IMG/VR virus record: IMGVR_UViG_3300023170_000065
Span: 1 to 40,633 of that record
Length of the DNA: 40,633 nt
Direction: 5' to 3' (one strand)
Origin: a virus
Shown here piece after piece: positions 1 through 40,633 of the stretch. The position numbers and the translations under genes are program-made. A model generated the notes under the pieces. That model ran no database searches. It was given only the letters and a program-made list of their open reading frames with translations, and was not told the DNA's origin. Position 1 is the first letter of the stretch. Each line of letters begins with the position of its first letter.

Positions 1-3000
1 CTAATACAATTGCATAGTATGTAACACCATCAGTTAAGTTTCCAATGTCTGTATTTGAATTATTATCATAAATTAAAGAAGCACCATTTTGTAACTTATG
101 TCCATTAGTTATTTCTATTTCATCATCCGCTGTAATATTTGCACCATTAAAGCTGTATATTACTGGGTCTACTTGAAAGTTAGTAGAAAAATCAAATGAT
201 TCAGTTTGAGTATTTGTAGCAGAGTATGCTCCATCAACAATTCCTATTTCTGCGTCTGTAGTAAAAGCTAAGTCATTACCTCCAGCAGAAGCTAAATCTA
301 TAATAAGACCACTGTCTGCTTTTAGCTGTATTCTGTCATTAGTTAAAACATTTACTCTGTAAGTAGTTTGATTAGCTAGTGTTGGATAGAACATTCCTTC
401 ATCATAAGAGTCAATTATACCCTCCATAAACTCTATTAATTCATTGTTATCCCATATGGTAGTTTCTTCTACTTGTAAACAGATTAATCCTTGTAAATCT
501 TCTTCATAAGAGTTGCTGTAGTTATAAACATAAATTCTGTCACCGTTTTCGCTTCTGTATGAAACCATCCAAGAGTTGCTATCATATAAGCTTCTATTTC
601 TAATTTTGTATGAAATAAGTATTGTATCTACATCTTGTCCAGTAGAGTTACCATAGTTTTTTTGCCAAGAAGCTGACCAGTAGTAATTATTATTTGTAGC
701 ACTGTAGCTTTGAGTATTTCTTTCAGAACCTGTATAACCTCTACCACTTACACTTCTATGATACAAATATAAATATTGTTCATATCGTGCATAAGTTGCT
801 CCATCTACTTCATTAAATTTTCTTAATGTTGCCCAGAATGGAATTGTAGAATTAGCAGTAAATGTTGTACCTACAAGTGATGGTTGGTCTCCATCATGTC
901 TTGTTCCTGCATAAGGGAAGTAAACATCTGTTTCATTTATATCAGCTGGAGTGTATGTTACCTGTTCAGTAACTTGGTCAGCCGTAGACCAATATCTTGT
1001 AGTAATAGCACTTGTAGAAACATAAGAATAACTTTTTACACTACCTGCTCTAACACCATCTGTTATATAACCTGTAGTAGATGGACTTGAAGAAGTTACT
1101 ATATCTACTCTACCTACATTGTTATCAAAATAATTATTTATGCCCTCTTTAATAAGAGAAAATTCAAAAGGTACTGTATCTGGATTTATTGGCGTTAAAG
1201 CACCTGTTGTTGCAGCAGGCAATGAACCTTGTGTAGCGTCTATAGTGATATTTGAATTTTGATTCAAAGCATGTTCTGGTAAATAAAAACTATTCTTAGT
1301 AGCATTGTCTGTTGTTCCAGACCAACCATATACTCCAGTTGCTTCTGTAATTCGCTGTGTAGTTCCTCCGTTTTTTAATCTAAATCTATCATTACCTACT
1401 TTTTCTATCTGATAAGTTCCCGAACCTATAGTGTCTTGTAAAATTAAGTTTCTGTTAGTAGATACACCTGTTAATACTTCTATATCGCCAGAGTTTATAG
1501 TTAAAGCTATATCATCACCATCTGCTAAAGCAAAATTTTCAGAATAAAAAGTATCAGCTTCATCATCTCTAATAAGCGGTACTACGAATACATCTCTAGT
1601 TCCAGAATATGCACCAAAGTATCTATAACCACCATTGTAGTTATAATTTTTTCTAAATCTCCAGTAACCACCATTTGATGTTCTAAAAGGTGTTCCTGCG
1701 TAATTTCTATTAAAGAACCAAGTACCGTCTATCCAATGAGCGTCATCTTCTATGAAGTTCCATCTATTTGGCTTAGTTCCTGTTTCCGGGAAAGTATAGT
1801 TTGTCGAATCTTGTTGTAATCCGTAAGTGTATGCGTCTTTTATATAATCTTCTATTCTTTGATTAGTTCTTGAGCAAAGCATAACTTTATCGATAGTTCT
1901 CCATGCTTCATCTGCGCCACCACCTAATCCATATCCACCTGCTGCTGAATCAAACTGGTTTATATCCCAACCAGAACCAACGCCATTGTTATACTCTGCC
2001 ACTGTATAAGCGTAGCCATAAGAATCTCTGTAGTTACCTCTGCCTCTCCATATTTCATAAACCATACCAATCATTGCTCTACCATAATTGTATGAGCCTG
2101 TATTTGTAAAGTTTATAGCAGAACCATCTCTGGTTGTAGTTAACTGAATATGGTCATCATCATATACTTTTACATAATAAAAATCAAATCTATCTAATCC
2201 ACCTATTTGAGTATCACCAGATGGAGGTACATAAAGTACTACATCATTTGCACGCATTCTGTGATTGGTCCATGCAATTGTATCGTTAGCAAGGTTTACA
2301 GCAGTTGCGTCAAACTTAATTGAGTGAGGAGGTCTCCATGCTTTAGTTTCTGTTTTAGTTAAATCTACAGTTGGTGTTACTGTAACTTCTTCAGCAAAAT
2401 CTACATAAGGTCTACCATCTGGTGCGTCAGATGTAGTAGTTTCTGTTACTTTAAGTGTTTTAGTTGCAACAGTATTTACTAGGTAGAAGTTTGAATTGTC
2501 AACAAATCCGTGTGGATTTGGAGTTGTAATACTAAGTGTTGATTGAGGTAGTCCGTCTGTTTGAACACCAGTGTCTTTATCATATGTTATTTGAGAACCT
2601 GCATAAAATCTTCCCGGAGTTACTGTAGAGTAAATAGAACCAATACTTCCTGTGTTTGGTTGTACTGCATTAGCAACATAAGTAAATGTAGTAGTACTAG
2701 CAGACTTAATTAGGAATTTACCTTCTGCTGTTCTTGATGTTAAACCTTGCACATCAATAGGTGTACCGATTACAAGTCCGTGCTCGTCACTACAACTTAC
2801 TGTAACAATATCAGAACCTGCTTTAGCAGTAATCCCTGTAACTATTTGTAAAGCAGCGTCTCCGTCTGCTACATAGAAAGAAGGAACATTATTTGATAAC
2901 TCTAATGTCTCCCATTTAGTAGGCTGAAGTCCATACTCAAAGTCTGTGTCAATTAGGTTCTCTGGAGTTGATACACGAATTTTATGTACTGGGTCTAAGA

Positions 3001-3298
3001 GAGAGTCCGCAACCTCAATTTCATTAAGAGGTCTATCTACAATAATTTGTAATTTTGAACTGTCTGTTACACCTAATGCACTTAAATCTGCAACTGTAGT
3101 AATTGTTAATTCTTCATCAGCTTCACTCCAGTTCCATGTAGCAACTGATAATTCTGCGTCAACAAAGTTAACAAGTTCTGTTCCAGTATCAACATCAACA
3201 ATAAGATATATTTCTTCTTTTTTTACATAGTATGGAAACTTAATAGTGTCATTAGCAGCGTCTATAGTGTAGTAAGATTGAATTATTTTTCTAGCCAA
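1..3298 (-). CDS. Very large tail or fibre structural protein, 3' end missing
   Basis: I read an uninterrupted minus-strand frame of 1099 codons that leaves the window at base 1 without a stop. The first usable start after the last in-frame stop is TTG at 3298 (reading M-A-R-K-I-I-Q-S-Y-Y), which overlaps the upstream gene by 8 bases and has a GGGTGG purine stretch just before it. The N-terminal ~100 residues (YYTIDAANDTIKFPYYVKK) look like the attachment regions of phage fibres. They are followed by several beta modules with a -HG-x6-G- motif, as in SDEHGLVIGTP and TPNPHGFVDN, and by a Tyr/Asn/Gly-rich middle. The last residues read (NGHKLQNG.. TDGVTYYAIVL) resemble a module inside the 1832-residue fibre at 7196-12694. 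A fibre or baseplate-type virion protein is inferred from context and modules; no enzyme motif was seen. Confidence 0.75.
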   Translation of the reverse strand, partial: MARKIIQSYYTIDAANDTIKFPYYVKKEEIYLIVDVDTGTELVNFVDAELSVATWNWSEADEELTITTVADLSALGVTDSSKLQIIVDRPLNEIEVADSLLDPVHKIRVSTPENLIDTDFEYGLQPTKWETLELSNNVPSFYVADGDAALQIVTGITAKAGSDIVTVSCSDEHGLVIGTPIDVQGLTSRTAEGKFLIKSASTTTFTYVANAVQPNTGSIGSIYSTVTPGRFYAGSQITYDKDTGVQTDGLPQSTLSITTPNPHGFVDNSNFYLVNTVATKTLKVTETTTSDAPDGRPYVDFAEEVTVTPTVDLTKTETKAWRPPHSIKFDATAVNLANDTIAWTNHRMRANDVVLYVPPSGDTQIGGLDRFDFYYVKVYDDDHIQLTTTRDGSAINFTNTGSYNYGRAMIGMVYEIWRGRGNYRDSYGYAYTVAEYNNGVGSGWDINQFDSAAGGYGLGGGADEAWRTIDKVMLCSRTNQRIEDYIKDAYTYGLQQDSTNYTFPETGTKPNRWNFIEDDAHWIDGTWFFNRNYAGTPFRTSNGGYWRFRKNYNYNGGYRYFGAYSGTRDVFVVPLIRDDEADTFYSENFALADGDDIALTINSGDIEVLTGVSTNRNLILQDTIGSGTYQIEKVGNDRFRLKNGGTTQRITEATGVYGWSGTTDNATKNSFYLPEHALNQNSNITIDATQGSLPAATTGALTPINPDTVPFEFSLIKEGINNYFDNNVGRVDIVTSSSPSTTGYITDGVRAGSVKSYSYVSTSAITTRYWSTADQVTEQVTYTPADINETDVYFPYAGTRHDGDQPSLVGTTFTANSTIPFWATLRKFNEVDGATYARYEQYLYLYHRSVSGRGYTGSERNTQSYSATNNNYYWSASWQKNYGNSTGQDVDTILISYKIRNRSLYDSNSWMVSYRSENGDRIYVYNYSNSYEEDLQGLICLQVEETTIWDNNELIEFMEGIIDSYDEGMFYPTLANQTTYRVNVLTNDRIQLKADSGLIIDLASAGGNDLAFTTDAEIGIVDGAYSATNTQTESFDFSTNFQVDPVIYSFNGANITADDEIEITNGHKLQNGASLIYDNNSNTDIGNLTDGVTYYAIVL

Positions 3299-3551
3299 GA
3301 GCCACCCACAATCCTACATTTAATTTACTAGCGTTATATTTAATCCACTTTGTTCCGTTATATTGTGTCATTACGCCTTTATCTGTATTAAAAATTAGTT
3401 GTCCCCTAGCAGGATTTGCTATAGCGTCTATTTCTGCTTGAGTTCTGCTAATAATACTTAGCGGAGAGTTCATTTGTATATCAGAATTAAATACAACAGG
3501 GTCATTAGAAGCGTCTAATGATTCAATGTTTGTTACTCTTATAGTACTCAT
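3291..3551 (-). CDS. Short fibre-anchor protein (minimal paralogue)
   Basis: An 86-residue protein starting MSTIRVTNIESL. It consists only of the module that forms the N-terminus of the larger fibres at 3969-5189 and 5422-7191: an opening M-S-x-I-x-V-x-x-I, a beta segment, then an RGQLIFNTD...YNGTKWI motif matching GDLVYDTD...YSGTDWL and GQMVFNSE...LTSLW in the paralogues. A clear GGAG lies 8 bases before the ATG. It probably binds the tail at the same site as the large fibres. It could be a remnant of a longer fibre, or a deliberate short plug or spacer. The family resemblance is visible in the sequence; the role is inferred. Confidence 0.75.
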   Translation of the reverse strand: MSTIRVTNIESLDASNDPVVFNSDIQMNSPLSIISRTQAEIDAIANPARGQLIFNTDKGVMTQYNGTKWIKYNASKLNVGLWVALG

Positions 3552-3624
3552 TAGTTACTCTCCATCAAAAGTAATAGGGATTGATTGAATTTTACCATGA
3601 ATAGTTCGTTTACAATTTTATATA

Positions 3625-7191: not shown

Positions 7192-7195
7192 AGTT

Positions 7196-10100
7196 TTATA
7201 CTACCACCAATCTTCCTTCGACAGTTATAGTTCCACCAAATGTTATAGGACCAACCATCATCATGTTTTGATTTTGAGGAACTGTTTGTGTTTCGTCGTA
7301 TGTGTCATTATTTCTATAACCCATACCATCTTCTCCTATCGCAACACCTAACTCATCTACTACAAGTCTTTTCTTACCTTCAGTAAAGATACTGACAGTA
7401 TCTGTTGTTTCAGTAGTAGATACTGATGTAGTTCCTTCTTCATTAGAAATAACTTGGAATGTTTCTCTTGATACAGCTAACTGAATATCATCATCAGTAA
7501 ATGTAACACCATCTGTTGTTTCTTGAAAATCTAATACAGAACCTGTTATTGGTAATGGGTCTGAATTATCTGAACTACCGTCGTATTCTATAAATGGTAT
7601 TTCAGAGTTAGTTACTGGTATATATTCTTCTATACCTAAGAAGTTTATAAGCTGAATAGAATCCGGAGTTCCTCCACCGCCACCGCCAGATACATAAGCA
7701 GGTTGCCATTCTCCAGCTCCAGAATTGTATTGTAATACTTGTTCATTTTGAGCTCCAGAAGCATTTACATCACTTAAATCATTTACAGAAGAACTAGTTG
7801 TAATAACTGTACTGTCTATATCAATAGTTACAGTATCAGAAGCAGATACAGTTGTATCAATACCTGTTCCACCGGTAATAGTAAATGTTTGTCCATCAGT
7901 TACTTCTTCAGAAGTTCCACTATCAGCTGCAACTAAGAAACTTGACATATTTCCAGAACCAGCAGAAGCTAACAATGCTGATACGGATATTTGTCTTAAT
8001 GCTGTTATAGAAGCGTCATAAAGTAAAACAGTATCATTTGTTGTATCAAGAGTTCCGCTATGTACTGTTCTGTCAGAAATAATTGAAGGTAAATCTAATA
8101 ATACTGTTCCATCATTATCTGGAAGATTAATTGTTCTATCAGCAGTAGGGTCTACAACTGTTAATGTAGTTTCAAATGCGTCATCTGTTGCACCTTCAAA
8201 GACAAACGCATTTTGTACATTAATACTTGTAGAATCTATTGTTGTAGTTGTACCTTGAACTATTAAGTTACCACCAATTGTGATATCTCCACCAGCTCCT
8301 AAATAATCTGAAATCTTAGTATCTAATGAAGCTGTAACTGCTTGGTTAGAAGCATTACCTATAAAGATATCTCCATCATCTAAGTTAGGTGTAGCATTTG
8401 TTCTGCTTGCACCCATAACATAGATTTGACCAGAACTTGCATGTACTCTAATTACTTTTGCAATCTTTTGTATTCCAGCTGTTTCTCCAGATGGTTTAGT
8501 ATTTGTTAAAGTACCTGTAGTAGAAATATATAAGTCATCTCCTACTGAGAATGATGAAGTATCAATTCCTATAAATTTACCGTGTGTAACTATTGTTACA
8601 TCAGTATTATTTGCTCCGTCTGCATACATAACACCGACTGCTGGCATTTTTGCAGAGTCATCTGCGTCAGCAACATCTACAGTAAAGTCTTGACCATTTC
8701 CTGCTTGACCAGATATATATACTGGAGTTCCTTTTGTAATTGTTGAACCAGATTCGTTTTTCGCAGCTACATGAATTGCACCTTTAACATCTACAGATAT
8801 TTCTTCTGTTAGACCTATAGTTACACTATCTGAGCCAACTGAAACCTCTATTTCATTAGTAGTACCATTAAATGTTACCGTGTCACCATCAGTTATTGGG
8901 CTTGTTAATGTTCCGTCACTAAGTGTAAAGCTAGACATACTTCCAGCACCAGCATTAGCTAAAATATCTCCTATTGTTGTTTTTCTTAAATCTGAAGCTG
9001 AATTATCCCACATCAACACTAAATCTTGTGCAGTATCTATAGTTCCAGAGAACGCAGTTTGATTTGTAATTATTGATGAATCAACACTTAAAGTTCCAGA
9101 AGAATATGTTATTCCAGTTCCACCTTGTAAGTAATTATCGACAAGATTATTTGAGTAATATAGATTGTTCACTCCCTGTAATATATCGTCTGTACTTAAT
9201 CCAGTTAAGTCAGAACCTGCAACAGACATAACAGCGTCTCCACCCATTCCAGAGTGAACACCGCAATAATAATAAATTAAATCTGGTGTTGTAGAATTTA
9301 CTACTATTTGTAAATATGAATCATCTGTTCCTTCACTACCTACTTTTGTTACCCCATCAGCACTTGTTAATTGAGTACCATTTGCATGTATGCCATCTTT
9401 ACCGTCAGATAAATAGAAAGGATGTGAGCTTAAACTAGAATCTGAAATATCAAATCTATATGTAAATCCAGATACTAATGTTAAGGAAGCACTTTCTTCT
9501 CCGTCTATAAAATATTTATTATTTCCACCAGAATCTTGCGCTACTGTTACTGCATAATTTATAAGTATTGTGTTTTGCTCTAAATCAATTATTTTATTTA
9601 CTATTGTGTCATCAGAATCATCTGTTAAAAATTTTCCAGAAAGTGCTCTTCTTGATTTAGCATTACCACCTCTATTTGTATTAGCTGAAGAGAATGGAAA
9701 CAATGTAGGAGTAGTTGTATGTACTCTTACATCTTTGTAAGCACCTGCTTGACCCTGTGTACCAACATCTGTAATATTTGTTGTATATTCAGTACCATAA
9801 ACATAAGTGTAAGTTCTAAATACTTGTTGTTGTGTAGCACTACCATTAGATATAGTAATTTGTGTTCCAGCACTTGCGTCTGAAGCAGAAGCAGCAACTT
9901 GTATTTCAGTTGTGCTTGTTACAATTGCATAATAATCTGTACCATTTGTAAGTCCAGATATATCAAAATCTCCAGCACTGTCATACTGTATTTCATCTCC
10001 TGTTGTTAAGCCGTGAGCTGCTGTAAATGTAATTGTGTCATTAATAATTAATGATGGGTCAAAAATATCTGTTACATAACTAGAGCTAACAACTGTATTT

Positions 10101-12694
10101 GTACCATCTTCTGTTTCGGAGAATTTTAAGTTATCAGTAGCTAAAGAACTATCAGATACATCAAATCTGTATGTAATATTTGCTTCTAAGTTTAGTTGTG
10201 CGTCTTCTTGACCATTAAATCTAAATTTATTATTAGCTACATCAACAACAATAGTTTTAACCATTGTGTTGTCTGTATCTATAACAGTCTTGTTACTTAA
10301 TGTGTCTGAAGTATCTCTTGCTACTAATGTATCAGTAGAAGCAATTGGCATTGTGATGATATTTGAACCATCACTAAATTCGTAGTTTCCACTATTTAAA
10401 GTTATTGTATTTGTATCTAAGTAGATAGATGTACCACTTAGATATAAATCTCTGAACTTAAATGTACTAGAACCTAAGTCATAGGTAACATCTGTGTCGG
10501 GTATCAGATGTCCAGCTATAGTTGTAGCTTCAAGTGTTTTGTTACTTAAAGTTTGAGTTCCGTCTAATGTAACTACAGTACTGTCAATATCTACTGTTAC
10601 TGTTTGACCAGATACAGTAGTATCAAGTCCAGTTCCACCAGCTATTGTTAATATTTGAGAATCAAGGTCAATTGAACCAGTTCCAGTATCGCCAGCTATA
10701 TCTAAACCTTCTAAAGTAATTTGCGCAGCTACATAATCTACAACAGCAGCAGATGTAGGAATAGTTGTATCATTATCATTTGAACCTATACCTTCGGCTT
10801 CTGTTACAACAGCAGAGGCAGCTAAATCTGCTACTTCAATATTAGATATACTGTTACCAGTACCATTAGCGTCAAAAGTTTTGTTTGTAAGTGTATCTGT
10901 ACTACTTGCAGTTATAAAAGCAGAAGTAGTGTTGTCGTAAAGAGATAAATCATCTTCAACAGTTAAGCTTATTGAATCACCATTATCATCATAACCAACA
11001 GTAATTCTTGTTTGTGTTCCAGAAGTTAAAGCGTCTATAACTGCGTCTTGTGCATATTCATCTAAATCTGCTTTTACTTCAGTAGCGTCAAAACTAAAAT
11101 CAAAGTTTCCAGCAGTATTAGTTATTGTTACACCTGTACCACCTGTAAATGTGACTGTATCGCCAAGAGCTATATCGCTAGGAGTAGTTCCGTCTGTAAA
11201 AGTTATATCGCTGTTTACTAATTTTGCATTTTCAATTGAGCCAGCAAGCATTGCATTTGTTACGCCAAGAGCTTTTACTTGTAATGTATCTGTATCTATC
11301 TCTATAGAACTATCGTCTACATTTACAGAAAGAGTTGGTGTTTGACCTTCAGAGGCAGTGCCTGTAGTTGCAAGACCATCTCCAGCAGTAATATCTTCTA
11401 CATAGTTACCAGTTGTATCAGTTCCTAAAGCAACACTATCAGCTGCAATAGTTGCTGTAATACTTGCAGTATCTCCAGCATTTGTAAATGTTGCAGAACC
11501 AGTTACATCTCCTGTAAGTTCTACCGTTACCGCAGAAGACAAAGCGTCAGCGTCATCAGCTGTTCCTGTCAAATCTCCGATAAAGTTAGCAGCTACAAAG
11601 TCGTAAGCTCCAACAGTCCATCTATCGTTTCCTTCGTCCCAAACTAATTCTACATTTGTACTTGTTCCTCTATTTACAAGTAAGCCAGCATTAGCAGTCG
11701 GTGCTCCAGTTTCATCTGCATTAAGTTCTAGTATTGCGTCACCGATAGTAACTGTGTTAGATTCAACTGATGTAGTACTACCTTGAACTGTTAAGTTACC
11801 TGTGATAGTTACATCACCAGTAGCACTAATAGAAGCAGCAGTTATATCATCTGAATAAAAAGTTCCATCTACTGTTAAGTTGTTTGTTATGGTGACATCA
11901 TCTGGTAAACCAATTGTCAAAATCTGACCACTAGCACTAGTTTCTATTTCGTTTGCAGTTCCAGCAATAGTAAGCGATTGACTGTCTAAATCAACTGCAC
12001 CGGTTCCTGTATCACCTGCAAAGCCTAATTCTTCAAGTGTAATTTGTGCTGCTACATAATCAATGATTGCGGCAGTAGTTGCAATTTGTGTATCACTATC
12101 GTTAGAGCCAATACCTTCTGCTTCAGTAACAATGACAGAGGCTTTAAATGCACCTAATTCAAAATCTTGTATAGTGTTATCGTCATAGTCAATAGTTTTG
12201 TTTGTTAAAGTTTGTGCAAGGCTATCTAGTACTACAGTTCCAGTTGCGTCTGGAAAAGTAATTGTTCTATCGGCAGTTGGGTCTGTAACTAATAAAGTAG
12301 TTTCAAAAGCGTCATCAGTAGCTCCCTCTAATGCTATAGAAGGACCACTAACTGTTAAGTTTGATGTAAGTATTGTGTTGAATTGAACATCATCAGATGT
12401 TCCTAAACCTAAAGAATCTCTTACTGTAGAGCCAGATTCAACAACCCACTCTGAACCATTACCAACAATGAAGTTTGAGTCTGTTGGGCTTAAAGCAGCT
12501 AATTGGTCTAAGTTTATATCATAGGCTTGAACATCTACACCGATTTCTAAACCTAAAGCTTGTGCGGCACCTAAAGCTGTATTAGCTCCAGTACCACCAT
12601 CTGATATTGCAATAAAATCGTCAGAAAGAAATTCAGTAAACTCGACAATATCACTGCCGTTGTAATAATACCTAATTGGACTTTTAGCTGCCAC
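7196..12694 (-). CDS. Giant modular tail fibre or tail structural protein
   Basis: 1832 residues, starting at a GTG that shares one base with the upstream stop (TAGTG). It is built almost wholly of Thr/Ser/Asp/Gly-rich beta modules. An AEGIGSND...YVAAQITLE...SLTIAG unit occurs twice (about 11.96-12.14 kb and 10.64-10.82 kb). DPTADRTI..P..GTV modules and a DLGSSTFKFRDLYLSG module also recur. Residues ~1071-1158 resemble a cupredoxin domain with Cys1144, His1147 and Met1150, and a decayed copy lies just before it. Residues ~1300-1430 resemble a capsid-cement-like beta fold (SGSTITKGTPVYISG...VGDDLYISTTG). It is probably a trimeric or multi-copy surface fibre. The exact site on the virion is unknown. 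Confidence 0.8.
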   Translation of the reverse strand: MAAKSPIRYYYNGSDIVEFTEFLSDDFIAISDGGTGANTALGAAQALGLEIGVDVQAYDINLDQLAALSPTDSNFIVGNGSEWVVESGSTVRDSLGLGTSDDVQFNTILTSNLTVSGPSIALEGATDDAFETTLLVTDPTADRTITFPDATGTVVLDSLAQTLTNKTIDYDDNTIQDFELGAFKASVIVTEAEGIGSNDSDTQIATTAAIIDYVAAQITLEELGFAGDTGTGAVDLDSQSLTIAGTANEIETSASGQILTIGLPDDVTITNNLTVDGTFYSDDITAASISATGDVTITGNLTVQGSTTSVESNTVTIGDAILELNADETGAPTANAGLLVNRGTSTNVELVWDEGNDRWTVGAYDFVAANFIGDLTGTADDADALSSAVTVELTGDVTGSATFTNAGDTASITATIAADSVALGTDTTGNYVEDITAGDGLATTGTASEGQTPTLSVNVDDSSIEIDTDTLQVKALGVTNAMLAGSIENAKLVNSDITFTDGTTPSDIALGDTVTFTGGTGVTITNTAGNFDFSFDATEVKADLDEYAQDAVIDALTSGTQTRITVGYDDNGDSISLTVEDDLSLYDNTTSAFITASSTDTLTNKTFDANGTGNSISNIEVADLAASAVVTEAEGIGSNDNDTTIPTSAAVVDYVAAQITLEGLDIAGDTGTGSIDLDSQILTIAGGTGLDTTVSGQTVTVDIDSTVVTLDGTQTLSNKTLEATTIAGHLIPDTDVTYDLGSSTFKFRDLYLSGTSIYLDTNTITLNSGNYEFSDGSNIITMPIASTDTLVARDTSDTLSNKTVIDTDNTMVKTIVVDVANNKFRFNGQEDAQLNLEANITYRFDVSDSSLATDNLKFSETEDGTNTVVSSSYVTDIFDPSLIINDTITFTAAHGLTTGDEIQYDSAGDFDISGLTNGTDYYAIVTSTTEIQVAASASDASAGTQITISNGSATQQQVFRTYTYVYGTEYTTNITDVGTQGQAGAYKDVRVHTTTPTLFPFSSANTNRGGNAKSRRALSGKFLTDDSDDTIVNKIIDLEQNTILINYAVTVAQDSGGNNKYFIDGEESASLTLVSGFTYRFDISDSSLSSHPFYLSDGKDGIHANGTQLTSADGVTKVGSEGTDDSYLQIVVNSTTPDLIYYYCGVHSGMGGDAVMSVAGSDLTGLSTDDILQGVNNLYYSNNLVDNYLQGGTGITYSSGTLSVDSSIITNQTAFSGTIDTAQDLVLMWDNSASDLRKTTIGDILANAGAGSMSSFTLSDGTLTSPITDGDTVTFNGTTNEIEVSVGSDSVTIGLTEEISVDVKGAIHVAAKNESGSTITKGTPVYISGQAGNGQDFTVDVADADDSAKMPAVGVMYADGANNTDVTIVTHGKFIGIDTSSFSVGDDLYISTTGTLTNTKPSGETAGIQKIAKVIRVHASSGQIYVMGASRTNATPNLDDGDIFIGNASNQAVTASLDTKISDYLGAGGDITIGGNLIVQGTTTTIDSTSINVQNAFVFEGATDDAFETTLTVVDPTADRTINLPDNDGTVLLDLPSIISDRTVHSGTLDTTNDTVLLYDASITALRQISVSALLASAGSGNMSSFLVAADSGTSEEVTDGQTFTITGGTGIDTTVSASDTVTIDIDSTVITTSSSVNDLSDVNASGAQNEQVLQYNSGAGEWQPAYVSGGGGGGTPDSIQLINFLGIEEYIPVTNSEIPFIEYDGSSDNSDPLPITGSVLDFQETTDGVTFTDDDIQLAVSRETFQVISNEEGTTSVSTTETTDTVSIFTEGKKRLVVDELGVAIGEDGMGYRNNDTYDETQTVPQNQNMMMVGPITFGGTITVEGRLVVV
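9221..9487 (-). other. Cupredoxin-like domain inside the giant fibre
   Basis: Residues ~1071-1158 of the 1832-residue protein read as a small Greek-key domain: FTYRFDISDSSLSSHPFYLS, then a loop, then DLIYYYCGVHSGMGG. His1091, Cys1144, His1147 and Met1150 are placed like the His...Cys-x2-His-x(n)-Met ligands of type 1 copper proteins, and the CGxHSxM string also resembles half of the CuA loop of cytochrome oxidase subunit II. The residues are visible in the sequence. Copper binding is inference, and the spacing to Met (x2) is shorter than in plastocyanin (x4). Confidence 0.5.
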
Positions 12695-30131: not shown

Positions 30132-30930
30132 TGTCAAAATCTAACTTAGTTGCTTTTCTGTATCCTTGGTTAAAGTTACCACTAGAAAAATTTTTTCTAG
30201 CGTTTTCAGCGTTTACTTCTTTTTCTGTAACCATATCCATTTTTAAATTCCACTTGCTTCTTTTAAAAGGAATTGCTTGAACAAAAGGTGTTCCTCTTTT
30301 TATCATAAAATCTTTTTTCTTATGAATAAGTGTAGGAAAGTTTACTTCATGCCAAGTATCAGTTTCTACAATTCCCGGAAGAACTGAAAAGTCTGTTTGA
30401 AAGTCATAGTTGTAAGGTATAAACAATGTTGAATATCCTTTTGGCGTAAAAAATTTCCATGGGCTATGAAATTTTAATGGGTGTTTATAGGTGCTTTTTG
30501 ATGGTAAATCCCAATTATATATTTGGTCATTTTGATGAAATGAAGCTCCATAAGGAAAATCTCTGTTATCCCACTCAAGTATTTCTTCTCCACCCATGTT
30601 AGGTGGAAAACCTCTTTGTATTAAAAAATCGGACCACATAGGAATTACAAAACCTTCTGTCATAATATCTACTATTGCAGGACATCTTTTAACAGTAAAC
30701 GAATAATACATATTCTGTGCAGTCTTGCCCATTTTTCCAAACAAATTTTTAACTTTACCGGGTCCAGCGTTTGGATTCCAACCTTGTGGTTTTTCCTCCA
30801 TATAGTGCTTCATCTCTTTAAACCAATTTGGCACTGCTTCTTGTGCTGGAACAACAGGTGCAAATTTTGCTAAACCCATTATGTCTGTTTTAAATTCTAT
30901 TGTCTGTTTCTTATTAAACTTAAATTCCAT
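30124..30930 (-). CDS. Conserved phage protein of unknown function
   Basis: 268 residues from ATG 30930, chosen because AAGGAG lies 11 bases upstream and the overlap with the preceding gene is then 11 bases; a start at 31008 would overlap it by 89. Recognisable pattern: VPAQEAVPNWFKEMKHY near the start, then FTVKRCPAIVDIMTEGFVIP with MWSDFLIQ, and later FHSPWKFFTPKGYSTLFIPY. I know this T-x-K-x-C-P...GYxIP...D and PW-x-x-x-TP-x-GYS arrangement from conserved hypothetical proteins of T4-like and other marine phages, possibly DUF6065-like. No catalytic motif is evident. Confidence 0.7.
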   Translation of the reverse strand: MEFKFNKKQTIEFKTDIMGLAKFAPVVPAQEAVPNWFKEMKHYMEEKPQGWNPNAGPGKVKNLFGKMGKTAQNMYYSFTVKRCPAIVDIMTEGFVIPMWSDFLIQRGFPPNMGGEEILEWDNRDFPYGASFHQNDQIYNWDLPSKSTYKHPLKFHSPWKFFTPKGYSTLFIPYNYDFQTDFSVLPGIVETDTWHEVNFPTLIHKKKDFMIKRGTPFVQAIPFKRSKWNLKMDMVTEKEVNAENARKNFSSGNFNQGYRKATKLDFDNA

Positions 30931-31564
30931 TCCTACTTTGTCTCCTTTTTCTGCGTTTAAATGCTTTATGACATTCTTTACAGAATATTTTAAGTTTATC
31001 TTGTGCATTAGGATTTTTTGAAAACTCTGAAGTTTTCTTATCTTTTTTGCATGATAAACATAATTTCATTTTATCATCACCTAGTTCTTCTTTCTTATCT
31101 TTTAAAATAATCATACAATCTTTACAAAAGCGAGTAAGACCATCTAGGTATTTTTGATTTCTTGAATACTCTTCTACAGGTTTCCATTCACGACAATACT
31201 TGCATTCTTTTTCAATAGGGTCTTTTAAATTTTTAAGAGCTTCTTTTTGAGCTTGTTCAACACGCTCTTTCAAACCTTCTTCTTCTTCTATCCAAGTTTT
31301 AAATCTTTCTAAGCCAATAGGTTGACCTTCATAAGTTCTTGGAGTTGTTAGACCACCTCTACCTGTACGAATAATTTCTAAAATAGCTTCTGCTGTTTCT
31401 TCGTTATAAGCACCTCGTTGAGGTACGCCCGATTCTATTCTTAATTGTCTAACTCTTTCATGTGTTACACCCCATTCATCTGCCCATGACTGTAGCATTT
31501 TATTAGGGTCTGCTAAAAAGAGTTCCCTAGCTTCCTCTAGGGAAGGAGCTTTTCTATGTACCAT
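30920..31564 (-). CDS. DNA-binding protein with HTH and two zinc fingers
   Basis: 214 residues. Residues ~25-50 (LQSWADEWGVTHERVRQLRI) form a helix-turn-helix like sigma region 4. A Glu/Lys-rich linker follows. Two zinc units come next: CKYCREWKPVEEYSRNQ...FCKDC (~118-147) and CLSCKKDKKTSEFSKN...FCKEC (~168-197). Each is C-x2-C-x(n)-F/Y-S...C-x2-C, a form often seen beside phage HNH and endonuclease VII proteins, but no nuclease residues are obvious. The C-terminus is very basic (KRRKRRQSRNGI). Likely a transcription or DNA-binding factor inserted among head genes. Confidence 0.72.
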   Translation of the reverse strand: MVHRKAPSLEEARELFLADPNKMLQSWADEWGVTHERVRQLRIESGVPQRGAYNEETAEAILEIIRTGRGGLTTPRTYEGQPIGLERFKTWIEEEEGLKERVEQAQKEALKNLKDPIEKECKYCREWKPVEEYSRNQKYLDGLTRFCKDCMIILKDKKEELGDDKMKLCLSCKKDKKTSEFSKNPNAQDKLKIFCKECHKAFKRRKRRQSRNGI

Positions 31565-32558: not shown

Positions 32559-33800
32559 TTAGAAGTTAGTGATTTTATGGAAAGCTGCTTCTCTGTAAAC
32601 AGGGAAACCGACTCTCATGGTAGCTCTGATAGCTAATTGATTCTTAATAAAGAAATCGCTATGTGAATCAGATACGGCTAATTCCATACCTTGTCTCATA
32701 ACTAAGTTAGCTGCTTCACCACCACCGAATTTACCAACAAGAACTGTTCCTGCGGCAATTGCGGTTGTAGGAACGACTTTTAGTCCCCAGATTTGAGCTG
32801 AAGGACCTGCGCCCATACCACCAGCTGCTACGAAAAGTGGTGACTTTTCTGTGTAGCCAGAACCGGAAGTACCTGCGAAGTCTGCACCTACAGAAGTCAC
32901 AACATCATTCCAGTCACTTGGGTGCATTACAATAGCGTCTGGCTCTGTAAATGCGTTGACTCTGATGTCTGTGATTGCTCCATAAAGTGCACCAATTTTT
33001 CCTAAAGTTCCTGCGTAAGAGCTAAAGTCAGTAGAACCGACTGAAGCTTTACCAGCGTCTAAGATACCTTCTAGGTTTGGAGCAGTTCCATCACCATTAA
33101 GGAGTTGGTTGTCCAAACGAAGTCTTATCATTGTTTGTAAACGAGAGTTGATGTATCCTTGGATACCACTTTCGTCTGCAAGTAATTCGTCTGTTACAGG
33201 AATGAAGATACCCATTTTACGGATAGCTTCTGTTTGCTCTGTGAAAGCCAAAGCTGCTTCTCCAACAGCAGAACCTTCAGCAGCTTCAGCTGCGTTATTT
33301 GTGAAGGTTGTTTCTTCCAAATAGCTGAATGCGTTTTGGTCTGTGTTGATTACATCAAATAATGATATAACAGCATTTGGGTCTCTAAGAGCTGTTTCCA
33401 AGATACCCGGTTGTCTTAAAACCTCTGGTGGGTATCCAGTAGTTGTCAAAGTTGTTTTTGTCTCAATATGAGAATCTACACCTTTAACACCGCCCTCCAT
33501 ATAATTTTTATATGCGTCGGTTTGTACAAATTGCTCACCAACAGTTTTAACTTCTGCTGATTTGCCAGCTAGTGGCATTTCTGCAACTGGCTTTGAATCT
33601 TCTTCGATAGCCTTAGCATTAGCGAGTTTTTTCTTCTCAATGTTAAGGTCTTCAACTAATTCAGCAAGTTCGTCATTTCTTGACTTGATTTCCTCTTTTT
33701 GTTCAGAGGTGTACTTGCCGTCTTCGTTGGCTTCAAAGACAGATTTTAATTCTGCTCTTTTAGCAGCAATTTGGTCCATGAGTTCATTTGTTTTACTCAT
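32559..33800 (-). CDS. Major capsid protein, HK97 fold
   Basis: 413 residues. Residues 1-~65 are a Lys/Glu coiled coil (MDQIAAKRAELKSVFEANED), the delta/scaffold domain typical of HK97-type capsids and normally removed by the prohead protease. The body contains YPPEVLRQPGILETALRDP, VINTDQNAFSYLEETTFTNN, a GIFIPVTDELLADESGIQGY spine-helix segment, LRLDNQLLNGDGTAPNLEGI, DAIVMHPSDWNDVVTSV and an LVMRQGMELAVSDSHSDFFI end. This set is diagnostic of the Phage_capsid family. GGAG lies ten bases before the start. It forms the icosahedral shell. Confidence 0.95.
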   Translation of the reverse strand: MSKTNELMDQIAAKRAELKSVFEANEDGKYTSEQKEEIKSRNDELAELVEDLNIEKKKLANAKAIEEDSKPVAEMPLAGKSAEVKTVGEQFVQTDAYKNYMEGGVKGVDSHIETKTTLTTTGYPPEVLRQPGILETALRDPNAVISLFDVINTDQNAFSYLEETTFTNNAAEAAEGSAVGEAALAFTEQTEAIRKMGIFIPVTDELLADESGIQGYINSRLQTMIRLRLDNQLLNGDGTAPNLEGILDAGKASVGSTDFSSYAGTLGKIGALYGAITDIRVNAFTEPDAIVMHPSDWNDVVTSVGADFAGTSGSGYTEKSPLFVAAGGMGAGPSAQIWGLKVVPTTAIAAGTVLVGKFGGGEAANLVMRQGMELAVSDSHSDFFIKNQLAIRATMRVGFPVYREAAFHKITNF

Positions 33801-33827: not shown

Positions 33828-35015
33828 TTATACTTCTTCTATTTCTTCGGCTAAGGATTCAGCAATTAATTGTTGAGCCCTTACCCACTCAGCGTCAAAC
33901 TCTTCGTCAGAGGAGTCAGTGTTATCTTCTGGAGTTTCTTCTTCAGCAGCTTCATCTTCCGGTTCTTCAACAGCAGGTTCCTCTACTGGTGCTTCTTCCT
34001 CAGTAACTTCTTCGACTTCTGTTTCAACATCAATAGTATCAGTTGAAGCCTCAGCTACCTCTTCTGTTTCAGCTGGTTCATCTTCCACAAGTTCTTCTTC
34101 TACTTCTAACTCCAAAGCACCCTCAGTTCCGACATTTCCGATGAACTCATCAATCTCGGTCCAAGCGTCGTTCAAGTCGTCTGCGACTGCACGAAGTGCT
34201 TCGGTGGCTTTTACGCCTAATTTCCTACCATCTTCACCACGGAGCATAGCAATTGCTTTTGCTCGGGCTACTAAGTCATCTAATGCAGCAAGCACATCTA
34301 TGACTTCTTCAGAGAAAGACTTGCTGTCTTCCTGTGAAACTTCTAAATCTTCTTCACTCTTCATTTCTTTTTTATCATCCTCCATTTTCATGCAAGGACC
34401 ACCGTCGTGATACTTACAAGATTTCATTTCTTCTTCGTCATCTCCGTAACTTTTTTGACTACAACCACAATTTGCGCCACATCCAGATGATTGTTCTTCT
34501 TTTTCATCACCTTTAACATCTGCAATTTCTTTTAATAATTCAGTATTAGATTTAATTGCTAATGTGTATGTGTCTTGGTTTGCTCCAACAAGTACTGGAG
34601 AGACTTCGTAAACAGTAAGGTCTTTTAGATATCTAGCGTTTGTATCTTCTCCGCCTTTATCTTTTGCCTTACCAAAATCTGAATCGTTAACTTTATAACC
34701 GAATGACCATTGTTGCATGTCACCCATGTTTTTAACTAAATTGTAAGCTTCTTTACCAGACTCTGTATCCATAAAGAACTCACCTTTGAACACTGCTTTA
34801 TCATCGTCTTGAGCAATTGTTCCTTTTCCAATAGGCATATCCCATTTGTGAGACCATACCATTGGAACTTGGTTGTTTTTAAAACCCGATTTGACAGCTC
34901 CCGGCATAACAACATCCCCATCACTGTCAAGGGAATTGAATATACTGAAAACTGCTTCTACTTGACCAGAGTCATCTTTCAACTCTATGTCTATATTTTT
35001 AGATTCGTTATTCAT
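33828..35015 (-). CDS. Prohead protease fused to acidic scaffold-like tail
   Basis: 395 residues. Residues 1-155 are a U35 (HK97-type) prohead protease: FSIFNSLDSDGDVVMPGA, WSHKWDMPIGKG with likely catalytic His56, QQWSFGYKV with likely catalytic Ser104, then LTVYEVSPVLVGANQDTYTL. Residues 175-210 hold a cysteine cluster (Cys179, 183, 185, 200, 208 plus His203). After that come a helical block (~230-305) and a 90-residue run dominated by Glu, Val, Ala and Pro, ending in a short helix (EWVRAQQLIAESLAEEIEEV). The protease usually has ~200 residues; the rest may serve as an internal scaffold. It cleaves the capsid delta domain. Confidence 0.88.
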   Translation of the reverse strand: MNNESKNIDIELKDDSGQVEAVFSIFNSLDSDGDVVMPGAVKSGFKNNQVPMVWSHKWDMPIGKGTIAQDDDKAVFKGEFFMDTESGKEAYNLVKNMGDMQQWSFGYKVNDSDFGKAKDKGGEDTNARYLKDLTVYEVSPVLVGANQDTYTLAIKSNTELLKEIADVKGDEKEEQSSGCGANCGCSQKSYGDDEEEMKSCKYHDGGPCMKMEDDKKEMKSEEDLEVSQEDSKSFSEEVIDVLAALDDLVARAKAIAMLRGEDGRKLGVKATEALRAVADDLNDAWTEIDEFIGNVGTEGALELEVEEELVEDEPAETEEVAEASTDTIDVETEVEEVTEEEAPVEEPAVEEPEDEAAEEETPEDNTDSSDEEFDAEWVRAQQLIAESLAEEIEEV

Positions 35016-35099
35016 ACATCCTTCAATCTTAAATTGTACAATAGATTATTCAGATGTGCGTTTTAACTATTATATGATACGATTGCGGATTTTAGTTTT

Positions 35100-37916
35100 T
35101 TATTGTCTAAAGTCTGATATTATTCTTAGCTTTGAAATTGGCATAGTGACTTTTCTATCAGTCTTTTTATGGTCGCCATTTTCTAATCTAGCCCATACTT
35201 CCATTGTGGCTTCATCATCATTTACTGATGTTACAATACCATGTACAACTGAAGGTGGGTCTGGTTCTTTGTTGATTGACCAGCTTACAGCTTGACCTAC
35301 TCTTACTGATTCTGCTTTGTTACCAGATTTTTTTGATGACAATGGATGTGAGCTCGGCAACAAGTCTTGGTCATAAGGTTTTCTTCTGAACTTACCTGTT
35401 CTCAATGCTCTTAAAAAGCCATTAACTCTAGCCATTGCCCATTGCTCTGCTGAACTCACATTACCTCTTACTGAACCCGGATTAGTTCTATAAGCACCTA
35501 TTCCTCTGTTATATACCGCAATTAGCATACGAAGTGTTGCTCTATGAGTAGGATTATTTTTATTATGGTCTTCTACTTTTCTAGTAAGACCTGCTCTAGC
35601 TTGGTCAGATATTGCTTTTAATAAATATTCCTCTGCATAATCAAGAGATTTTTTTCTTCTCTCTCTAATAACTTTTTTGTAGTCATTTACAACAGACTTC
35701 ATTTGTGAAACTCCACCAGCTGTTACTCCACCCCACTTCATAACTGCAATAATGCCGTTAAGTCTATTATTTTTCTTATGACGATTCATAAAGCGTTCTC
35801 TTCTCTTAACCCAGTTAAGAACTGATTCGCTTCTATCTCCACCTTTATATGCTGTCCATTTATTAAAAGCGTCATTACCAGTAAATGATGTTGGAGGATT
35901 ACCGCCCGTTCCAGCTCTCCTCCAAATCTCTGGCCAGTTCTCTTTTAAATCTTTAACATAAGCGTAGCTTGGAAATTGTGGGTGTTGAGAGTTAGATAAA
36001 CTTATTTTTTGATTATCTCCACTTCTAGGAAAGTTTGTTTTGCTAGGTGCTTTTTCTTCTGGACTGTGTAATTTATCACCTTTTTCGTACATTACTTCTG
36101 CTTCTTCTAGAGATACTTTAAGTTCTTCTATATCTCCGTCTTTTTTAGGTTTGTAGACTGCGTCTAAATAATCTTGATGTGTAGCGCAAGCCATATAAAA
36201 TTTATCTCCGTCTACTTCAATGTAATGTGTACCTTCACAACCTAATTCTTTAGCTCTCTCTTGTGCTTCTTCAATAGTTGTGTAAGTATCTTTCATTAAA
36301 GCAGCTGGTTCTTTTTTATTATTTAAAAAGTTCTCTGCTTCTGCTCTTGTGTCAAAGCATTTTATTATTTCACCATCTTCATGGCTTATAACACAGAAAG
36401 CACCATTAGGCATTTCTGCAATATATTTTTCTTCATTAAGATAAGTAGGTGTTGGTTTAACAACATCTTCTCTTTCTACCTCTGGCGGTAAATCAATAGT
36501 AGTTAACTTACTCTCGTCATCTTCGGGTGCAGGTTCTTCGTCATCATTGTTATTTGCCGGTGCAGGTTCATTAGTAGGTTGGTCATTTAGAAGTGGTGAA
36601 CCATCTTCTGTAACTTGAATCATGTTAAGTGGCCTTAGATAAACATCATGTCTTTCATCAGCCTCTAAACCAACTACTTTTCTTGCTTCGCCAATTGTTA
36701 CCCAACCTCCTTGAACAGCAGTATTCATGCGTTTATAGAGATTGTCTTTGTCATCAGCTAGTGCTCTAACATTACTGATATCAAACTCTGCGTATTGATT
36801 ATCATTTCCGCCGAACTCTGGTCGTAACAATTGATGAGTCAGTTCTTGCGCAACCATGTTCCACATTGGGACCATTTTTGACTCTGTAAAGAACTCTCTA
36901 AGTTCTTTTGTATTTGAATAAGTCGCCGAATCCAATCCAGCTCCGAGGCCGGCGAGCACTGCTGGAACGCCAAGAACTGCTGACACTCTTTCTTCTGGGA
37001 TTCTTCTTAATTCAGCTAACTTCATTTGGTCTGGAGAGAAAGAAACTATTTCAACATTCATAGCACCGGATAAGACCATAGGCGCACCTCTGTTCTTACC
37101 ACCAAACTTTTGCTTATACATATCTGCAATAGCTTCAGCTTCTTCTCTAGTTGGGCCACCCATAGCGTCATCTCTCGGTGAGAGAATTACTCCGGGTACC
37201 GCCATATTATGTAACAAAGCCGCAGTGTATTGTCCTGCTGCTTCGTCTCCTGCTATTTCTCTTAGAACGCCTCTAAGTGGAGCAAGACCACGCCTCATAT
37301 TATTAGGGTCAACATTTTGGCGTAAGTGAACCATATCTGCTTTTTCTATGCGTACAGAATCTTCCCCCTGTACACCGCCTTGTGGTTGATAGTTATAATG
37401 AGTTATAAGTTCATTCTCATTTCCTTTTGCTTCAACCAAGTGAGGCATAAGAGGAACTAGCTCTACAACTACCCCTCTTGAGTTTCTATTTTTATAAATA
37501 AAAGCGTCGCCGTTTGCATTTAAAGCTGTAACAATATAGTTTGCTAGCAACTGTTGTGTCATGTAAGGATTTGGTCTTCTGAATAGTCTTGCTAATTCGT
37601 GATTCATGTCTTGTGCATAATCACCTTCATTATTTTTAGTAGCAACTAAAAGTCCCGGTTCTGCAAAAGCAGTAGCTAGTACATTGAGACATGCGATAAC
37701 AGCAGAGTTTCCAGTTCCGTCACCTAGTTCTGCTAATGTTTTGTGGTCAAAATAACCAGATTGGGTGTTGTAACCCATAACTGCTTGATTAAGATATGAA
37801 TACTCTGATTGGTTTACAATTAAACCTTTTTGATTTGCTTCTCTTCTAATTCTTGCGTCAGTTGGTGCATTCAACCAATCTAACGCTTTTGAAAATCTTG
37901 ACTTCTCTTCAGCCAT
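35100..37916 (-). CDS. Portal protein with long multidomain C-terminal extension
   Basis: 938 residues, about twice the usual portal. Residues 1-~440 are an HK97-type portal (VIACLNVLATAFAEPGLLVA, NPYMTQQLLANYIVTALNAN, RGLAPLRGVLREIAG, then a RIPEERVSAVLGVPAVLAGL stretch). Then follow an acidic linker, a KCFDTRAEAENFLN motif (~519), a GCEGTHYIEVDGDKFYMACA motif (~559), a domain at ~625-750 (FPRSGDNQKISLSNSQHPQF, ESVLNWVKRRERFMNRH, MKWGG), a DUF5824-like part at ~758-850 (VYNRGIGAYRTNPGSVRG, QWAMARVNGFL) and a Tudor/HVA1-like end at ~869-938 (VRVGQAVSWS, VVHGIVTSVND). The core is the DNA entry ring; the extensions are unexplained. It shares a base with the TerL stop. Confidence 0.9.
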   Translation of the reverse strand: MAEEKSRFSKALDWLNAPTDARIRREANQKGLIVNQSEYSYLNQAVMGYNTQSGYFDHKTLAELGDGTGNSAVIACLNVLATAFAEPGLLVATKNNEGDYAQDMNHELARLFRRPNPYMTQQLLANYIVTALNANGDAFIYKNRNSRGVVVELVPLMPHLVEAKGNENELITHYNYQPQGGVQGEDSVRIEKADMVHLRQNVDPNNMRRGLAPLRGVLREIAGDEAAGQYTAALLHNMAVPGVILSPRDDAMGGPTREEAEAIADMYKQKFGGKNRGAPMVLSGAMNVEIVSFSPDQMKLAELRRIPEERVSAVLGVPAVLAGLGAGLDSATYSNTKELREFFTESKMVPMWNMVAQELTHQLLRPEFGGNDNQYAEFDISNVRALADDKDNLYKRMNTAVQGGWVTIGEARKVVGLEADERHDVYLRPLNMIQVTEDGSPLLNDQPTNEPAPANNNDDEEPAPEDDESKLTTIDLPPEVEREDVVKPTPTYLNEEKYIAEMPNGAFCVISHEDGEIIKCFDTRAEAENFLNNKKEPAALMKDTYTTIEEAQERAKELGCEGTHYIEVDGDKFYMACATHQDYLDAVYKPKKDGDIEELKVSLEEAEVMYEKGDKLHSPEEKAPSKTNFPRSGDNQKISLSNSQHPQFPSYAYVKDLKENWPEIWRRAGTGGNPPTSFTGNDAFNKWTAYKGGDRSESVLNWVKRRERFMNRHKKNNRLNGIIAVMKWGGVTAGGVSQMKSVVNDYKKVIRERRKKSLDYAEEYLLKAISDQARAGLTRKVEDHNKNNPTHRATLRMLIAVYNRGIGAYRTNPGSVRGNVSSAEQWAMARVNGFLRALRTGKFRRKPYDQDLLPSSHPLSSKKSGNKAESVRVGQAVSWSINKEPDPPSVVHGIVTSVNDDEATMEVWARLENGDHKKTDRKVTMPISKLRIISDFRQ

Positions 37917-39148
37917 TAATACGCGCTCCAGCTTCTTTGTTCTTGCAACATTTGTACGCCGTAGGCTAGGGTGTCAATAATATCATCATGAGCTCCAGCA
38001 GGAAAGGTCATAATTTCTCTCTCCACCTCTGGTAGCCAATGTGTATCTCGTAATAAATATACATCACCCGCTTCCATGCGAGCAGATAAAGGAAGTGCGC
38101 GTGTAACTTTGTCTTTATCCGTCTTTAGATTTTTCACACGAATACCAGCTCGTTGCGCCATCTGGATTATCGTGGTCTGAAAACCTTGGCGTTCTATACC
38201 TACATATTTTAGCTTATTTTTATCCATTGCGCGTTTTATCGCTGGAATAATGTCTGGACCTTCTAATTTTGCTCTAGTCATATCAATAACAAGTAATCTG
38301 TTGTCTGGAGTTCTTGCAAATGATGTGATTACAGTAAAGTCAGAATCTTTATTTGTTGTAGTAGCTAAGTCAACAATTCCAAACTTTTCTAAGTTAGCTA
38401 GATAATATTCTGAGCCGTCAACTAAGCATTTAAGATTTCCTGCTTCGTCTGGAACAATTGCAAAGTAATGTATCCATTCTGGCTTTAACATACCTTGACC
38501 TGCGTCAACAAACTCTGCTAGATACTCTTGTGCAAAAACAATAGAGCCAACTTCTTTTCTAGCTGCTTCAACTTCTTCGGGGTCAATCATAGGATTGTCA
38601 GTAGTAGCAAATCTAAATCTTTCCCAGTTTTCTCCTTCTTCTGCTTGCTCCCATAAATCGTAAAACCAGTTATCTCTTCCAATAGGAGTGCTAATAAATA
38701 ACGCAGAACCTTTTCTTTCAGTAAGTGTAGGTCTAAGAACTTCTGACCATACTTCCGGTTTAACGAATGCAGCTTCGTCCATAACTAGAAAGTCAAGACC
38801 CTCACCACGAAGTCTTTGTGGGTTATCAGCAGACCTTACAGCAATAGAGCCCCCGTTAGCTAAATCAATTTGCATATTAGCCAAAGATACTTTTGGTTCT
38901 ATTTCTCTAGGAAATGATTTTGCACTTGCGGCGATATCACGCCAACCAACTCTAGCAATTGAAAATGTAGGTGCTACCCACCAAGCTCTACCTCCGCGTA
39001 AAGCTACTTCCATACATAATTGAACACCAAGTCTTGTTTTGCCGAATCGTCTACCTGCGCAAAGAATTTTCCAACGCGCTTCTGATTCTTTTACTTTTTG
39101 TTGACCGCTATGTAAAGAAGGAAGTTTAGGAACATACTTATTCGTCAT
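37916..39148 (-). CDS. terL: Terminase large subunit
   Basis: 410 residues, complete. ATPase: Walker A AGRRFGKT at residues 31-38, Walker B DFLVMDEA with Asp124-Glu125, and an ISTPIGRDN coupling motif at ~152. Nuclease (RNase H-like): Asp260 in FGIVDLATTTNKDSD, Glu319 in YVGIERQG, and Asp388-Asp389 in HDDIIDTLAYG. It drives DNA into the prohead through the portal and cuts the concatemer. No small subunit is evident next to it, although the HNH and small genes upstream occupy that area. Overlap of 11 bases with the preceding gene and TAATG with the portal indicate one transcription unit. Confidence 0.96.
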   Translation of the reverse strand: MTNKYVPKLPSLHSGQQKVKESEARWKILCAGRRFGKTRLGVQLCMEVALRGGRAWWVAPTFSIARVGWRDIAASAKSFPREIEPKVSLANMQIDLANGGSIAVRSADNPQRLRGEGLDFLVMDEAAFVKPEVWSEVLRPTLTERKGSALFISTPIGRDNWFYDLWEQAEEGENWERFRFATTDNPMIDPEEVEAARKEVGSIVFAQEYLAEFVDAGQGMLKPEWIHYFAIVPDEAGNLKCLVDGSEYYLANLEKFGIVDLATTTNKDSDFTVITSFARTPDNRLLVIDMTRAKLEGPDIIPAIKRAMDKNKLKYVGIERQGFQTTIIQMAQRAGIRVKNLKTDKDKVTRALPLSARMEAGDVYLLRDTHWLPEVEREIMTFPAGAHDDIIDTLAYGVQMLQEQRSWSAY

Positions 39149-39416
39149 AGAGTTCCTTATACATCACAATTGGAGTATAAGGACCAACATAAGCAGATAT
39201 AATATTGTAATCTATGTGTGCAATAGCATTATCAACTGCTTCTTCTTCTGTGCAGTCATCATCTTCCAAAATACCATCTACAACAATATCTAGCATTGTG
39301 TAGTAATCGTAAATAGCGATACCTTTAGTTGTAAATCCTAAATATGCTTCTTCAAAATCATCAATGACAATTGCTTCGGGATTAAATTCTTTAAGTTCGT
39401 CATATACTTCACTCAT
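39138..39416 (-). CDS. Conserved small phage protein of unknown function
   Basis: 92 residues from ATG 39416, chosen because it overlaps the HNH stop as ATGA and has GGAG six bases upstream; an ATG four codons earlier lacks this spacing. The pattern EAIVIDDFEEAYLGF, then GIAIYDYYTMLDIVV, EEEAVDNAIAHIDYNI and SAYVGPYTPIVM matches a widespread family of small phage proteins (A-I-V-x-D-x-F-D/E-x-A, Y-D-Y, EEA, N-V/I-x-x-A-Y-V-G-x-x-T-P). Their function is unknown. It lies between HNH and TerL and overlaps TerL by 11 bases. Confidence 0.82.
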   Translation of the reverse strand: MSEVYDELKEFNPEAIVIDDFEEAYLGFTTKGIAIYDYYTMLDIVVDGILEDDDCTEEEAVDNAIAHIDYNIISAYVGPYTPIVMYKELYDE

Positions 39417-39805
39417 TTCATTCTCCATTGTAGTATAAGAAATCCTTTGAGTAGTTCAGTATATTCAAACTTAGAACCAACTTGTTGTCTTCCGTCAAAT
39501 ATATCGTGATGATGTTTACAAAGAATACAAACATTCATTGGGTCATCAGATATATCTCTGTCGCGTCCACCCATACCCTTTGCTCGTAAGTGAGCCATCT
39601 CTAGCCATTTTTTGGAATTGCAGTTCGGCCATTCGCATTTATGTTTTGCTCTCTTTAAAGCTTTCTCCCGTAGCTCTGAAAGATTTTTTTTGCCGGTGCC
39701 TTCTCTTTTTTTCTGCCCCATACCGGATATACCAGAGTTTGCACTTCTTCTTTTTTTAAACTCCGCCCAAGTTTCATTTTCTGGGTCCCATTGAACTTTA
39801 CTCAT
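39413..39805 (-). CDS. HNH endonuclease
   Basis: 130 residues. A basic N-terminus (FKKRRSANSGISGMGQKK) precedes an HNH core: CEWPNC, then LEMAHLRAKGMGGRDRDISD, MNVCILCKHHHDIFDGR. The first His is in MAH, the Asn in MNV, the second His in KHHHD, and the two cysteine pairs would hold a structural zinc. HNH proteins next to terminase in long-tailed phages help cut the DNA at packaging, so it is likely a packaging partner and not a homing enzyme. Confidence 0.9.
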   Translation of the reverse strand: MSKVQWDPENETWAEFKKRRSANSGISGMGQKKREGTGKKNLSELREKALKRAKHKCEWPNCNSKKWLEMAHLRAKGMGGRDRDISDDPMNVCILCKHHHDIFDGRQQVGSKFEYTELLKGFLILQWRMK

Positions 39806-39920: not shown

Positions 39921-39928
39921 AGGTTTTA

Positions 39929-40120: not shown

Positions 40121-40383
40121 AGTTTATTTATAATAGCACCCAACCAAAGAAATTATTTTTTGTTGCCCCAACCACAACTCTCTTTTTGTAGATACAGCTA
40201 ACCCTGTGCGGCCCCGCCCAAACCAAAAATTAAATATGCCGAGGAATGTCCCTATGACGGACGATTATGGTCTGGCTAGTCCACTTAGATAAGTTCTGAA
40301 CGCTACACTCATTCTGAAAGCCAGTGCGTGTAGTTACTTGTAGTTAGATACACTAGCGAATAAAAAAATTAATGCAAATCGTT

Positions 40384-40411
40384 TTGTATAAGTTTTTATT
40401 TATGATATATT
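40384..40411 (+). promoter_or_regulatory. Possible plus-strand promoter
   Basis: TTGTAT and TATATT are separated by 16 bases, resembling -35 and -10 boxes (the -35 is poor, the -10 is five of six). A transcript from here would run about 90 bases to the terminator at 40472-40506. AT-rich DNA gives such matches by chance, so this is weak. Confidence 0.25.
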
Positions 40412-40471
40412 TTCAATATATAGAAATGGTTGTATTGCAATTATTTCCTTTTGACTCAAATACTAGAAGAG

Positions 40472-40506
40472 ACCGGTGTTCTGTTAAAGCCAGCGCCGGT
40501 TTTTTC
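40472..40506 (+). terminator. Rho-independent terminator, plus strand
   Basis: ACCGGTG pairs with CGCCGGT (seven pairs, one G-U) around a 15-base loop and is followed by six T residues. It is oriented for rightward transcription, opposite to every gene in the window, so it must end a transcript that begins within the ~350 bases to its left. Confidence 0.75.
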
Positions 40507-40633
40507 TTTATACTGCTACACACCACACTGCCCTGCATATATGCAAAAAGCTATCTCCTGTTGTGAGGGTGGTCCTATAGAGGAATGCGCAATATAACTA
40601 ACGCTAGATATAAAGCCTCGCAATATATACTCA

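Follow-up and report, generated by a model that had tools for sequence, protein, structure and literature searches.

Restriction-site avoidance has long been known in phages. A survey of prokaryotic viruses reported elimination of sites in 7.5% of cases, mostly those of orthodox Type II systems, and found GATC to be the most consistently avoided site: it was under-represented without exception in the 46 phages with a host encoding the enzyme (Rusinov et al. 2018, PMC6286503). Twort-like staphylococcal phages, such as phage K and fRuSau02, are GATC-free, a property credited to host restriction endonucleases (PMC5618024). The small ssDNA phage phiX174 also has no GATC, a lack discussed in terms of Dam-directed mismatch repair (PMC5014478). 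In this work we analyze the linear virus record IMGVR_UViG_3300023170_000065 over its full 40,633 bases (hereafter, the window). Like the phages surveyed in PMC6286503, the window belongs to an apparently unprotected dsDNA phage and has nearly lost a set of contiguous words of the Type II kind; unlike those phages, it has lost about eight words together, including two asymmetric 5-mers, it has been matched to no host, and the state of each word can be traced over its clade and inside mosaic genomes. It shares the complete absence of GATC with the Twort-like phages, to which it is unrelated and with which it is compared on GATC alone, and with phiX174, for which the passages of PMC5014478 considered here describe no further set of purged words. 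The present case is unusually complete, and its contribution lies in the number of purged words, two of them asymmetric, and in a clade with traceable gain and loss.

The window covers the structural half of the genome of a tailed phage, HK97-like and uncultured, and the record is probably a genome fragment. Its main genes all lie on the minus strand, in the order HNH, terminase, portal, S78 protease, HK97-type capsid, tail genes and long tail-fibre-like genes (Table 1); a marine origin is inferred from the marine phages that its tail genes resemble. The window also carries one copy (30124-31008) of a phrog_7084 protein, a family of unassigned function common to haloarchaeal tailed viruses and cyanophages, of which the relative G010 has three copies (L088:3974-4684, 8841-9602 and 9609-10355). 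The phage integrase family PF00589 was found in none of 21 records searched.

Table 1. Features of the window, with positions on the 40,633-base record
Feature	Position	Strand	Evidence or remark
Tail-fibre/structural protein	2..3298	-	Related to marine cyanophage virion proteins
Long tail-fibre-like gene	7196..12694	-	
Sole GCATC/GATGC site (GATGC)	27569..27573	+	
Protein with endonuclease VII/HNH-like matches	30920..31564	-	PHROG matches
HK97-type major capsid protein	32559..33800	-	Pfam Phage_capsid
Prohead protease (S78)	33828..35015	-	
Portal protein with C-terminal extension	35100..37916	-	Pfam Phage_portal, E 9e-61
Terminase large subunit	37916..39148	-	Pfam Terminase_6N/6C; PHROG terminase
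Small HNH endonuclease	39413..39805	-	Adjoins terminase

Expected word counts were derived from a maximal-order Markov model and from 200 synonymous shuffles that keep every protein and the codon usage of each gene. GATC does not occur in the 40,633 bases, where the Markov model predicts 98.0 instances and the codon shuffles yield a mean of 98.2 and a minimum of 81, and every positional bin along the window is empty. An earlier note, made by inspection of the same sequence, had reported this absence and had taken codon choice as a sign of active avoidance, and the counts bear out both statements. Aspartate preceding a codon that starts with C is encoded by GAC in 66 cases and by GAT in none, while elsewhere GAT predominates (629 GAT, 272 GAC; 70% GAT); none of 57 isoleucine codons following a codon that ends in G is ATC, and serine following NGA is encoded 27 times by AGY and never by TCN. 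When the comparison with other 4-mer palindromes that the note had proposed is carried out, these range from 0.59 to 1.35 of their Markov expectation, and ACGT alone is as completely absent as GATC.

The depletion extends well beyond one word. Measured against the codon-shuffle mean, the window contains no ACGT (65.4 expected), no CCTGA, which is the reverse complement of TCAGG (57.9), a single GCATC (62.0), no CCWGG (19.5) and no CTGCAG (19.7); GAATTC and ATGCAT are likewise absent, with small expectations of 11.4 and 11.0. Besides GATC, at least five other restriction-type words are therefore missing, and probably seven. Weaker avoidance is observed for CATCG (6 against a shuffle mean of 31), TCGA (20 against 46), CATATG (2 against 14.5) and TCTAGA (3 against 16). 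Among interrupted words, whose two parts stand 1-8 bases apart, none is comparably avoided in the window, so the purged words are short and contiguous, like Type II sites. Several would match the targets of known Type II enzymes: GATC to MboI, ACGT to MaeII/HpyCH4IV, GCATC to SfaNI, CCWGG to EcoRII, CTGCAG to PstI, GAATTC to EcoRI and ATGCAT to NsiI. For TCAGG/CCTGA, the least familiar of the set, Type IIS methylation has been reported from the Bacteroides fragilis group (PMC10333322). A single degenerate word, CCTGR, was considered in place of CCTGA and CCWGG and rejected, since relatives lose one and keep the other.

The breadth of this set bears on the suggestion that GATC is avoided through processes linked to Dam methylation, such as MutH mismatch repair or SeqA-like binding, and not through restriction, an idea raised for phiX174 and enterobacterial phages. 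The precedent of phiX174, which has no GATC and in which such sites reduce mutation by way of mismatch repair (PMC5014478), speaks for such a mechanism, which should nonetheless affect GATC alone; ACGT, TCAGG, GCATC and CCWGG are equally purged in the window, and we regard this origin as very unlikely, at least as the sole cause.

Relatives were collected from IMG/VR with the terminase large subunit gene as the query, yielding 80 loci, 71 of them in a close clade and nine in a sister clade. GATC is absent from all 71 fetched loci of the close clade, against about 1,585 expected instances on contigs that are partly redundant. Among the longer records, the count is zero in the 56-kb G010 (148 expected), in G006 (123) and in G013 (117). 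The stretch of the near-identical relative G001 that continues past the end of the window has no GATC (16 expected), and the opposite half of the genome is also free of it in G020 (31 expected) and G006 (74). G014 has two GATC sites, both within the final 380 bases of the contig; this end matches nothing in the other fetched loci or in the phage database, and the two sites therefore seem to have been imported recently or to stem from a join at the contig end. The nine sister-clade loci contain 9-33 GATC sites each. As a separate observation, the sister clade (L072-L080, including G015) has both GATC and ACGT and is missing CATG; in its longest member (G015, locus L073), CATG is found 0 times against 93 expected and CCWGG 0 times against 26.

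The part of G001 lying past the window end also holds about eight copies of a repeated intergenic element within 4.3 kb (L082:12669-17000), which recurs at L096:7047, 8393, 9315 and 14196. The element has a TCCAA..GGACC layout with two GC-rich hairpins of differing sequence, is often followed by an inverted repeat of the TTCACAA..TTGTGAA type and preceded by a terminator-like hairpin. It has no match in Rfam, and single-sequence folding is clearly significant in one of five copies.

To follow the words across lineages, a word with an expectation of 3 or more was counted as purged at any observed/expected ratio under 0.25. On the unrooted terminase tree, GATC and ACGT each require one change of state, as opposed to 6 changes for GCATC, 7 for TCAGG, 9 for CCWGG, 5 for CTGCAG and 5 for GAATTC, numbers to which short contigs add noise because the state depends on a ratio threshold. 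GATC and ACGT are purged over nearly the whole clade, and GCATC, TCAGG, CCWGG, CTGCAG, GAATTC and ATGCAT in the sublineage of the window. ACGT is near normal in the subclade of L037 and L041-L045 (59 observed and 65 expected in L037) and is at zero in most other members. The same variation is seen within single genomes. In G014, 22 of 24 GCATC sites lie beyond 30 kb, almost all of them at 30-36 kb and beyond, and alignment places most of the GCATC sites of this genome in the counterpart of the window's long tail-fibre-like gene, a mosaic module. In G013, islands of GCATC, TCAGG and CCWGG sites at 0-3 and 9-22 kb are separated by stretches nearly without them. Such patchwork genomes would be the expected trace of modular recombination among lineages with different restriction histories.

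Shared absence among relatives could reflect mere inheritance, and the terminase genes allow this to be distinguished from active maintenance. Homologous synonymous codons were exchanged column by column among 54 distinct terminase genes (51 for ACGT). The permuted genes contain on average 16.6 GATC (minimum 10) and 26.9 ACGT (minimum 20), as compared to none of either in the real genes, with GCATC (2.5) and TCAGG (2.7) pointing in the same direction. The control words CATG, AGCT, TGCA and CTAG occur as expected, and GTAC (48 real, 67.9 permuted) and AATT (370 real, 383.9 permuted) are mildly low. As permutation creates GATC and ACGT and the real genes have none, neighbouring sites must co-vary to exclude these words; the purging is kept up by purifying selection, beyond mere inheritance.

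The same result weighs on the proposal that mutational or compositional bias, through G+C content, codon usage or polymerase context, removed the words without selection. The low G+C content and skewed codon use of the genome lend this proposal some appeal, but the words stay missing when proteins and codon usage are held constant in the shuffles, normal numbers of ACGT, GCATC or TCAGG occur in relatives that do not differ in composition, and exchange of homologous codons brings GATC and ACGT back. Compositional bias is refuted as the cause, and we assign this proposal virtually no probability.

The earlier note had also stated that no phage-borne protection system is present in this half of the genome. 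This agrees with our searches of the window, a fragment of the genome, in which no member of PF01555, PF02086 or PF00145 (N6/N4, Dam-type and C5 methyltransferases) was found; the DpnII family is absent from the window and from 25 records searched. Because the genome is incomplete, an undetected phage-borne system may lie in the missing part, and modified bases would leave no mark in the sequence. Among 37 records, only G013 has a methyltransferase of the searched families: a DNA adenine methyltransferase near the terminase (L089:69-845), with CcrM and DpnA as its nearest entries in the PDB. Separately, an M78 metallopeptidase domain is encoded by an early gene at L096:9467-10357 and L084:6505-7404, and this gene or a relative of it occurs in eight contigs; the copy in L084 weakly resembles the N-terminal domain of the anti-restriction protein ArdC, below cut-off (E 0.01).

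The nucleases of the phage itself offer another potential source of the pattern: a GATC/ACGT-cutting nuclease encoded by the clade in its unsampled early region could act against host or competitor phage DNA and spare its own genome through absent sites instead of methylation. The strict absence of GATC over the whole clade, the presence of phage nucleases (HNH and endonuclease VII-like) and the unseen part of the genome would fit such an enzyme. Both nuclease genes of the window, however, also occur in the GATC-containing outgroup G015, which makes the HNH protein an unlikely cause of GATC loss; the DpnII family is missing as noted above, and one enzyme cannot explain eight words that switch independently among close relatives. 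We therefore consider a nuclease of this kind extremely unlikely.

Attempts to identify a host gave little direction. Scans of 84,980 prokaryote genomes with the terminase and the capsid returned no relative, and isolate phages include none at 60% identity or above, their matches being remote only. These matches point in different directions: Microcystis phage Mwe-Yong1, Sinorhizobium and other phages for portal and capsid, mostly actinobacteriophages plus Pseudanabaena phage Pam4 for the endolysin, and marine cyanophages and pelagiphages for tail proteins. Shine-Dalgarno-like sequences, which Bacteroidota rarely use, are found in the 22 bases upstream of the start in 19 of 30 window genes, compared with 13% of random positions. 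Their frequency argues against a host among the Bacteroidota, which had been considered since methylation at TCAGG, GATC, CTGCAG and CCWGG is reported there (PMC10333322).

Taken together, these results favor a lineage in which host restriction-modification systems have long selected, and still select, against the words, a reading to which we assign a probability of roughly 0.86. Host Type II restriction endonucleases would cut unmodified phage DNA on entry, and each new site would cost infections and be eliminated, mostly through synonymous codon choice. The earlier note had likewise invoked long selection, but by hosts that target GATC; the long-lasting, active selection stands, while GATC proves to be one of about eight purged words, implying pressure from several specificities and not from GATC-cutting hosts alone. 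At GATC itself the acting enzyme may be MboI/DpnII-like, methyl-dependent and DpnI-like, or of another kind. The lack of avoided gapped words fits contiguous Type II targets rather than the bipartite sites of Type I systems, and the presence of GATC in the sister clade, which lacks CATG instead, together with the differing word states of lineages and modules, counts in favor of host restriction. Counting against it are the lack of a matched host, and hence of any cognate enzyme, the missing part of the genome, where a phage-borne system may lie, and the asymmetry of GCATC and TCAGG, given that avoidance elsewhere mainly concerns orthodox Type II sites (PMC6286503).

The set of missing words reads like a record of the restriction systems met by an uncultured marine phage lineage, one that varies among close relatives and even from module to module within a single genome. 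It provides a usable clue to the host, directing attention to marine bacteria with GATC, ACGT, GCATC, TCAGG and CCWGG systems, and the clade offers a natural system for the rate at which sites are lost and regained following a host switch.
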